Translations under genes and position numbers: made by a program | Origin: Hydra vulgaris | Lineage: Eukaryota; Cnidaria; Hydrozoa; Anthoathecata; Hydridae | NCBI RefSeq assembly: GCF_038396675.1 | Contig: NC_088920.1 | Span: 21,358,001 to 21,422,000 of the forward strand | Length of the DNA: 64,000 nt | Direction: 5' to 3' | Notes under the pieces: model-generated | The model's input: only the letters and a program-made list of their open reading frames with translations | Databases searched by the model: none | What the model was told of the DNA's origin: nothing | Shown here: in pieces, positions 23,171-26,838 of the stretch | Position numbering within the stretch: position 1 is the stretch's first letter | Layout of the letters: the number at the start of each line of letters is the position of its first letter

Positions 23171-24531
23171 TCACAAGGCTTTTCTTTTATAAGTTTTTCT
23201 TTCTTGAGTAGTTGGACGAATTTCCAAAACTTCTGGGGAGTTTTTGATGTAATGATTGGACAGAATACTTTGTAGTCTTTGTTTTCCTTTCATATGGCAG
23301 AAGGTGCTGTTCATACTGTTGAATTCAGCATGCATGCTTTCTAAGCCTTGCTCTCCATAAATATCAAGACCTAAACCCCAATTTCTAATGAAATCAACAC
23401 AATGGTTTTCTAATAAATGCATTTTTGGCGTAATGGACTCATTGGGCCATGTTTTACGAAAGTAACTCATTAATTCTCCAATGGCTCCTTCTGATTCCAA
23501 AAAAAAAATTAAATTAAAAAACGTGAAAAACTAAGTAAGAATAATTATGCAAGCAAGAGGAAATTTAATACAAGTAACTTAAAACAAACAGTTTATAAAT
23601 ATGTATTTTTACCTAATTCTAATAATGGATTATTATTAATTATTTCACTTGAATTCATAAAGTTGTAGCATGTACCGTATTTGGAGAACAAATTTACAAA
23701 TTTCTGACTTAAGATCTTTGCCTTGTTATGTACATCTGTATCAATAAATCCAAGATCTGTTACTATCTTAGGTATCGAATTGCAAAGATGTAGGACACTG
23801 TTTAACTAATAGATGAAAAATAAATTTTGTAATTTACAGAATTAGTACTTCTATACGTTATATATTTACAAAAATATTTATACAATTTATATTTACAAGT
23901 ATGCAAAAATATGTATGGAAAAACCTTTAACATTTTATGAACATGATTCCCGATAAAGCATTTTCCGTAGTAAGCTTGTCTTTGAACATTAAGACCACAT
24001 AGAACTTCATCAAGGTTTTTCACAAGTGGTCCATGCGATTTTTCAAATGTTTTAGTTTTTAACTCTTCTAATTCAATAAGCTATATAAAAAACAGCACTA
24101 CATAAACACACAGAAGCATTTGCTATTACATTGATAAATGTTTCATTCACATAAAACTATAGAATATTTTATTTTATTATTTCAAATATTAACTTATTAT
24201 ACCTTAGCATTTTTCTACTCCATAAAATGAATTACTCTGGGCTGAAAAATTTCATTGAGATATTCTTTATTTTCAGGAGAACGTAGAACTTGTGTTGCCA
24301 TTGCTTCATGAATTAGCTTTATTTTTTCACAATATTCAGAAATAATTTTTTCTTGTTCATATATTTTCAACTGAACTTCAATATACTCATCAAAACTTTT
24401 GTCATTTACAGTTTTATTTTTTAACACATTTTAGCTGCAATTTTTATATCTATGAGATGACAGCCATCTTCCAGCATATTAAAAAATTTAAGATAAATTC
24501 CTAATGAGATATGCAACGATGGAATGCCAAC
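23171..24531 (-). other. RAG1-like exons 6–9: linker, H-x4-H and final Glu
   Basis: Exon 6 begins VGIPSLHISLGIYLKFFNML and contains a frameshift and a TAG. Exons 7 and 8 read YGKCFIGNHVHKMLK and SQKFVNLFSKYG. Exon 9 carries ITPKMHLLENHCVDF, whose H-x4-H matches RAG1 His937/His942, then GLDIYGEQGLESMHAEF, the place of the RAG1 SEGNES segment with Glu962. The final Glu is residue 846 or 850. The protein ends KRKAL-stop. Confidence 0.75.
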
Positions 24532-24624
24532 CTAGATTCATTAAATCAATAAAAACAATATTAAAATGATATAAATAAGTAAAAAATTAATATACTATAA
24601 AAATGTAATATATTATAAAAATAC

Positions 24625-25648
24625 CTGTGTTAAAGGAATATTGAAAAGTGGTGAATCAATGACATTGTTACAATACTTTGCAAACCTTGGTATTTGACCT
24701 TTTTGAATGAATTTTTGCAAATCTGCATCAAGCGTTTCCAGCGTGCGACTGGAACAATTACTTATTCGTTGAGCATATGGCTTTTTCATCTCTGCACGAG
24801 TTATATGACAAAACAAGCAAGCATGTCGACCTAATATGATAATATATTTTATACATAGCGTTTAAAAAGCCACTAAATATGATTTGTTTGTTGCACAATT
24901 TTATTATTTGAATTTATACCATTTGCACCAGTAATTCCATATGCTGAACATAAGAACTTGTAATCACCAAAGATAAATACTCTTATTTTTTTCTCACTAA
25001 AAATAATTTTTATTAAAGTAGATTAAAATATATTTATCCAAATACATTAAACAATTTGATAAAATAAAACCTACTTCCAACACAGTGACTGCAATTGATT
25101 AATTTGTTGTGTAAACATTGAAAGACCCACAATAAGGTTAGGTTTGTATTCTTTTGCTTCAAAAATACTAAATACATTTGTGTTTCTTCTGGCATTAGGC
25201 TTATCAACATTCACAATTTGATAACACATCTTAAAGGATCCACCACCATAATCACCACCAATTTTAATGTGAATTTCGTCATTTTTTATATTGGAATGCT
25301 GTAGCAAATTTTTCCTATTTAATTTGTAATTGAATTTAAAATAATTTTAGAAAATAAATAAACTTTTAATAAAAAAGCATATACAATGACAACATTTTTA
25401 TACAGACACACATTTATGTAAAATACTATCTTTACTTTTTTAGAAGATTGAGTTTGTTTATTATATGTGATGGAAGATCTTTAATGTATCCCCAAGGAGC
25501 ATTTTTAACTTCAAATGAATCACTGGAGTCTTTTAAAAGAAAGTTAAACGGAGCATTACAAACTACCTAATCCTCTCCAGACCAGGATTTAGCTACTTTT
25601 CGTTGCTTTTTGTTTGATGCACATTTTATATCTTTGGTTTTAAGCCAT
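24625..25648 (-). other. RAG1-like exons 2–5: first and second catalytic Asp, ZnC2
   Basis: Exon 2 has one TAG. Exon 3 carries HIKIGGDYGGGSFKM with the candidate first Asp (about residue 420), then VFSIFEAKE, comparable to the RAG1 segment after Asp600. Exon 4 reads VFIFGDYKFLC with the candidate second Asp (about 490). Exon 5 has ACLFCHITRAE, aligning with the RAG1 ZnC2 motif ICTLCDTTRLEA (Cys727/Cys730 in mouse). The short distance from the second Asp to C-x2-C is similar to RAG1 Asp708 to Cys727. Confidence 0.75.
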
Positions 25649-25743
25649 CTATAATAAAATTTTAAACATTTTGTTTTTTTATTTATTCACACTTTCATTT
25701 TAGTTTGATTTGGTCAAATTCAAAGTTTGTATATATAAAAATA

Positions 25744-25840
25744 ATATATATATATATATATATATATATATATATATATATATATATATATATATATATA
25801 TATATATATATATATATATATATATATATATATATATATA
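25744..25840. repeat. (TA)n microsatellite in RAG1-like intron 1
   Basis: About 97 bp of TA, 13 bp from the exon 1 donor site. Confidence 0.95.
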
Positions 25841-25854
25841 TGAAGTTAATTTAC

Positions 25855-26838
25855 CTTGCAAGTATCTTCATGTTTGAATATGTAATTCCCATATGAGCTT
25901 TCATACTTATCATTTCTTCAGCACTTATAACTGATAAAGGTATGTCTGACATCTTCAATATTTTAACTTGATCTTTTACTTCGAATGAATTTAAAATAGC
26001 AGAGGTTTGCTGAATTTTTGTTGTGCTGGGCATACCAGAGGTCACATTTAAAGAGTTTAAAACAGCTTGATGTCTTTTTTTTTTTGCTAATCGGAGTCAG
26101 TAATAATTGATCACCAATACAAATTTCTTCGTGCAATTTTTTAAGCTCATTGTCTTTAACCGCAAATTTTAATTTACATTGCTTATTGCAACCTAAAATA
26201 ATGCGCTCTATCAACTGTGTTACATTAACAGAATTTACAATTGTAAATAATGGAATGTGTTGATTACAAATAAAGCATTTTGTTTCTGTTTCCAGCTTTC
26301 CTTCAATCTCCTTAAATATACACACTGAGCAAAAAGAATGATGACACTCTTTTAGTATTAGTGGCTTATACATGTTGTTGCACAAATTGCATATACATAA
26401 GTCTAAATGGGGATTTGATACAGGATCAATATCAATTGCATTTAAACGCAAAGTTTGTTCTGGTATACTAGCAATTAAGCTATTAATGATTGGCCTGGTC
26501 CATCTTTTCTGATTTCTTTCTATTATACATGGCCGACCAGGTTTACATTTTTTAACTTTCCTACCAGAATCTTTAGAGAAACAGGAACATTTGTCTGCAC
26601 ATGGTAATGGCCATTCAACTACTTTAACACTGGTGCTAGAACCTTTTTCAATGTTCCTCATAATGATATAGCACTTCCTACACATTTTTTGTGGATGAAC
26701 ATTTTTATTATCAATGTTGATGTTTATATAAAATGAATTTTCGATTCTTTCAGAATATTTACACACATCAACTGAGTCTTTCCTTATATATTCTCCACAT
26801 ATTCTGCAAATGAGACTTAACTTGGTTAAATGGTCCAT
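25855..26838 (-). other. RAG1-like exon 1: N-terminal zinc motifs, RING, zinc finger
   Basis: C11-x2-C14-G, then HPQKMCRKC (C53, C56), VKVVEWPLPC and CSCF follow the RAG1 N-terminal zinc region, where HPQ-x2-C-x2-C is followed by VEW and a cysteine pair. The C3HC4 RING uses C150, C153, C165, H167, C170, C173, C188 and C191. A following C-x3-C and H-x3-C (C217, C221, H236, C240) occupies the place of the RAG1 zinc finger after the RING. The extra A shifts the frame after residue 252; the correct continuation (MPSTTKIQQTSAILNSFEVK) lies in the adjacent frame and reaches the donor AAG|GTAAAT. Confidence 0.8.

Follow-up and report, generated by a model that had tools for sequence, protein, structure and literature searches.

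A probable dead Chapaev transposon copy with a RAG1-like N-terminus in the Hydra genome

A locus on the minus strand of a 64,000-nucleotide stretch of the Hydra vulgaris genome (assembly GCF_038396675.1, contig NC_088920.1, positions 21,358,001 to 21,422,000; hereafter the window) raises the question of whether the two halves of RAG1, a RING-bearing N-terminus and a recombinase core, stand together here because the gene belongs to the RAG lineage. The original prediction had described it as a near-complete RAG1-like gene, a relic or close relative of the transposon lineage in which both halves were already fused outside vertebrates. We conclude that the locus is a dead Chapaev element, a copy of a DNA transposon of the CMC/CMCT group, a reading to which we assign a probability of roughly 0.93. 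Chapaev is a distant cousin of Transib and RAG, and the co-occurrence of both RAG1 halves outside vertebrates is not new.

Gene structure, decay and relatives

Nine exons (26838-23171, minus strand; Table 1) are joined across eight introns, all eight of which are GT..AG with phases compatible across the junctions, into a spliced reading of 905 amino acids. This reading reproduces the residue numbering given originally, from HPQ at 48 and the RING from C150 to D420, D490, C509/C512, H824/H829 and E846/E850, and its exon borders coincide with break points in tblastn alignments of relatives (rows for 5 of 24 queries). The consistent phase claimed for the nine exons holds at the splice junctions and fails inside exons 1 and 6, each of which contains a frame change. 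Two in-frame TAG stops lie in exons 2 and 6, and, compared with relatives, about 75-80 residues (P0001 residues 250-328) are absent at the exon 1 break, between the zinc finger and the core. Because a one-protein reading requires two frame changes and two stops read past, and these residues are lost, the window copy is dead and should make no working protein; it is near-complete in its domain set, and not in its integrity.

A protein search in which the 7999 candidates with the most shared words were scored returned 24 proteins at E <= 0.001 (weakest 2.8e-56), including 12 from Hydra vulgaris, 6 from Branchiostoma and one each from Patiria, Strongylocentrotus and Antedon; a profile search listed 11 proteins, 7 of them new. 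In a tree of 18 rows, from which 9 of 26 labelled relatives were omitted as short or truncated, the window protein groups with the Hydra proteins P0001, P0002 and P0003 (100/100), and it shares 85% identity with P0003 over 523 columns. Its nesting among Hydra proteins agrees with the cnidarian host that had been proposed. One relative, P0006, has an uninterrupted model of 981 amino acids in which, by alignment, every motif is kept. In P0001 and P0002, two gene models of Hydra that stand near the window copy, the exon with the first Asp is absent, and P0001 carries a repeated exon 2 sequence in its place; these are either broken copies or annotation errors.

The catalytic core and the N-terminal region

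The core of the window protein matches the Pfam family DUF1280 (PF06918) at 61.7 bits against a cut-off of 25 (E = 9.9e-17). DUF1280 proteins are described as Chapaev transposases in a survey of RNase H folds, which sets the family in one clade with RAG1 (PMC3985635). The Chapaev motifs C(2)C, LH and H(4)H, as given in PMC4079192, are all present and conserved, at C509/C512, in exon 6 and at H824/H829. Among 24 aligned relatives, with counts taken over rows that have a letter in the column, the first Asp (D420) is kept in 22/23 rows and the second (D490) in 23/23; C509 and C512 are Cys in 21/21 rows each, H824 and H829 are His in 23/23 and 22/22, and E846 and E850 are Glu in 21/21 each. Judged by this conservation, D420, D490 and E846 are the candidate DDE triad expected of a Chapaev. 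The D-D-[CxxC]-[HxxxxH]-E arrangement of the original prediction is present in the spliced reading, and the locus is indeed a relic of a transposase gene.

What does not survive is the claim of a close relationship to the RAG lineage. The RAG1-core family (PF12940) is neither among the 7 Pfam families found at E <= 1 for the window protein nor among the 25 of 45 Pfam families listed for the 24 relatives. Searched against the PDB by sequence, the core profile gave 6 matches at E <= 10 (best 0.078), RAG1 not among them, and its comparison with RAG1 itself was weak (probability 7%, E = 0.005). With a RAG1 core query, amphioxus RAG1L was recovered at 3.4e-80 and HzTransib was not recovered at E <= 0.001; because HzTransib is missed too, the weak RAG1 score tells more against RAG1L than against Transib. 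The predicted AlphaFold fold of the P0006 core resembles the RAG1 core, with RAG1 the closest structure and HzTransib also similar, so that a RAG1-type core fold is predicted for this relative. The original prediction had offered to give way if profile searches placed the core in an unrelated DDE family with no significant RAG1 or Transib score: by sequence the core comes close to that outcome, but the predicted fold counters the unrelated-DDE reading.

The likeness to RAG1 is plainer in the N-terminal part. In the whole-protein scan RAG1_imp_bd (PF12560) scores 25.7 bits against a cut-off of 23.3 (E = 1.1e-05), falling slightly below that cut-off when the N-terminal piece is scanned alone (22.2; 22.8), and the RING (PF00097) is found at E = 5.8e-05. 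PF12560 appears at E <= 1 in 7 of 8 N-terminal pieces (best 1.6e-09); whole-protein scans list it for just 4 of the 24 relatives, P0006 not included, many of them being without the N-terminus. The N-terminal profile A3 has RAG1 as its top PDB match (2.5e-18), and the non-RING region alone matches the RAG1 structure 21wb (1e-08). When the N-terminal part of P0025 served as query for a protein search, P0025 alone was returned and RAG1 was not reached, and in a single-sequence PDB search other RINGs score above RAG1. The predicted model of the RING plus finger matches RING structures including 1rmd, but tied with TRAF6, and 21wb was not among the fold matches listed.

The N-terminal zinc region, the C3HC4 RING and the second zinc finger are all present in the spliced reading, the first two with Pfam support, and they precede the D-D-E core in the RAG1-like order that had been described; the same zinc region and RING/dimerisation domain characterise RAG1 and RAG1L. 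PF12560 lies before PF00097, which would be the Chapa-then-RING order of published Chapaevs if, as we take it, the PF12560-like region is their "Chapa" domain. Intact relatives would be cut-and-paste transposases, in which the core, of RNase H fold and similar to RAG1 and Transib, would bind and cut the element ends by means of a D-D-E active site and a putative Cys2-His2 zinc site, and the N-terminal zinc region and RING-plus-finger module may serve dimerisation, ubiquitin ligation or both, as in RAG1.

Between finger and core, at a place similar to that of the RAG1 nonamer-binding domain, relatives carry an SGGPRP-like sequence (at 303 in P0001, 134 in P0005, 301 in P0025, and in others) within the stretch that is missing from the window copy. 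Its resemblance to the GGRPR of that domain was not retained as evidence, for want of a significant match (hhalign probability 0.1%, E = 0.45; no PDB match at E <= 10).

Competing explanations, element ends and surroundings

A true RAG1-like (RAGL/Transib) element of the vertebrate RAG1 lineage, its RAG2-like partner lost, would suit an N-terminus nearest to RAG1 in the PDB and a predicted core fold nearest to RAG1, and cnidarians are reported to have RAGL elements (PMC7204232). Yet the core scores as DUF1280 and not as the RAG1-core family, and its profile match to RAG1 is far from that of amphioxus RAG1L; moreover, in the account of Martin et al. (PMC7204232) the RAG1L of amphioxus and molluscs has a RING, whereas that of the jellyfish Aurelia is without one. 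We consider such an origin very improbable. Scant credence is likewise due to a Hydra gene domesticated from a transposon, as RAG1 was, of which the window copy would be a pseudogene: the relatives are annotated as genes, and P0006 has its uninterrupted model, but the Hydra proteins are many and divergent, several are truncated, and the DUF1280 gene counts given in PMC7642931 (31 in H. vulgaris, 13 in H. viridissima and 0-4 in five other cnidarians) fit a transposon. It is also unlikely that the RING and N-terminal zinc region were joined to a Chapaev core independently of the RAG1 fusion, their likeness being a convergence of common zinc domains. Because the non-RING part matches RAG1 as well, and in the same order, the zinc/RING module appears to be shared with RAG1 as a whole.

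Several points weigh against the Chapaev transposon reading. Chapaev elements end in inverted repeats 5'-CAC..GTG-3' with a target-site duplication of 3-4 base pairs (bp), and neither convincing terminal inverted repeats nor a target-site duplication was found in 19500-23171 and 26838-30500. The best CAC/GTG-motif pair matched at 15/20 bases, and none of the 15 top pairs listed had a 3-5 bp duplication; the top motif-free pairs listed were AT-rich, one with a 3-bp duplication consisting of T alone. These results cover the highest-ranking pairs of either list, with no shuffle control. Since no ends were recognised, it is from the protein family alone that we infer mobility. The predicted core fold comes from P0006, 40% identical to the window protein, rather than from the window copy, and RAG1 structures may have been within the AlphaFold training data. 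By sequence, the link between core and RAG1 is weak, and weak scores alone cannot separate Chapaev from Transib; because of the DUF1280 match, which does separate them, we favour Chapaev.

The same flank search showed no Transib-type 5 bp duplication among the pairs listed. No further copy was seen in the window, where tblastn of the 24 relatives gave 150 matches at E <= 0.001, 0 of them outside 23000-27000. The flanks 22000-23100 and 26900-28500 hold no open reading frame (ORF) longer than 83 amino acids; no RAG2 partner was seen there, no kelch or PHD search having been made.

Table 1. Features of the Chapaev-like gene in the window.
Feature	Position	Strand	Remarks
Exon 1	26838-25855	-	Start codon; holds the three domains of the next rows; reading frame changes near 26085-26074
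N-terminal zinc region, residues 10-88	26575..26811	-	C-x2-C, HPQ-x2-C-x2-C, VEW, C..C; RAG1_imp_bd-like
C3HC4 RING, residues 147-191	26266..26400	-	PF00097, 23.3 bits against cut-off 21
Zinc finger after RING (C217, C221, H236)	26131..26190	-	Position of RAG1 dimerisation-domain finger
Exon 2	25648-25436	-	In-frame TAG at 25567-25569
Exon 3	25314-25075	-	D420 at 25251-25253, first Asp of the candidate triad, in GGDYGGG
Exon 4	24996-24920	-	D490 at 24963-24965, second Asp of the candidate triad, in FGDY
Exon 5	24830-24625	-	C509/C512 (CxxC) at 24808-24819
Exon 6	24531-24203	-	"LH" motif (LHI); reading frame changes near 24435-24411; TAG stop in frame at 24215-24217
Exon 7	24080-23925	-	
Exon 8	23805-23613	-	
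Exon 9	23490-23171	-	H824/H829 (H-x4-H) at 23402-23419; stop codon
Candidate catalytic Glu, exon 9	E846 at 23351-23353; E850 at 23339-23341	-	

Elsewhere in the window, about 1.7 kilobases (kb) upstream of the gene, a tandem array at 28539-28976 (plus strand) is built of 78- and 120-base units with ATCGAAAA. Transposase-like pieces at 32290-34624 (plus strand) include a weak FLYWCH match (E = 0.002, below cut-off) and a part, 33660-34235, without a match, and are followed by a RING ORF (PF13920, 8.6e-14); putatively one gene, they are possibly a second, unrelated RING-bearing transposon some 5.5 kb from the Chapaev copy. Other transposable-element remains at 3627-4661 (+), 17669-18103 (-), 48477-48878 (-) and 50061-51182 (+) contain DDE_1 with a Tc5-type DNA-binding domain, DDE_3, an integrase zinc-binding domain and reverse transcriptase.

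Comparison with known RAG1-like and Chapaev elements

Kapitonov and Koonin (2015; PMC4411706) reported Chapaevs in which a RING comes after an N-terminal domain resembling that of RAG1; they inferred an ancient fusion, and the species in their tree include Hydra (Hydra magnipapillata), lancelet and sea urchin. Because both these RING Chapaevs and RING-bearing RAG1L are already published, the window locus is a new, broken example of a known element type. A full-text literature search found no paper naming this Hydra copy, a weak negative in that repeat catalogues such as Repbase were not covered. The RAG1-like N-terminus of Chapaevs bears on the timing of RAG1's ubiquitin-ligase module, and the relatives provide a sequence set that joins a RAG1 N-terminus to a RAG1-fold core in a cnidarian; those in Hydra are possible test material in a laboratory animal, although the general point has already been published.

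Like the published Chapa-RING Chapaevs (PMC4411706), the window protein has an N-terminal zinc domain, a RING and a Chapaev core; unlike them, it is broken, has lost the stretch between finger and core and has no recognised ends. From vertebrate RAG1 it differs in a core sequence too distant for a usable score; the relatives gave no significant match to the nonamer-binding domain, and the flanks named above showed no RAG2 partner. HzTransib is a Transib, and the canonical Transib transposase is described as having no identifiable domain beyond the core (PMC4411706). Aplysia N-RAG-TP is likewise a transposable element with sequence resembling the RAG1 N-terminus, but by its description (PMC8355894) it is set apart in being N-terminal-like throughout. 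Amphioxus ProtoRAG and mollusc RAG1L likewise combine a RING-bearing N-terminus with a core outside vertebrates (PMC7204232), but theirs is a RAG-type core, accompanied by a RAG2L partner.
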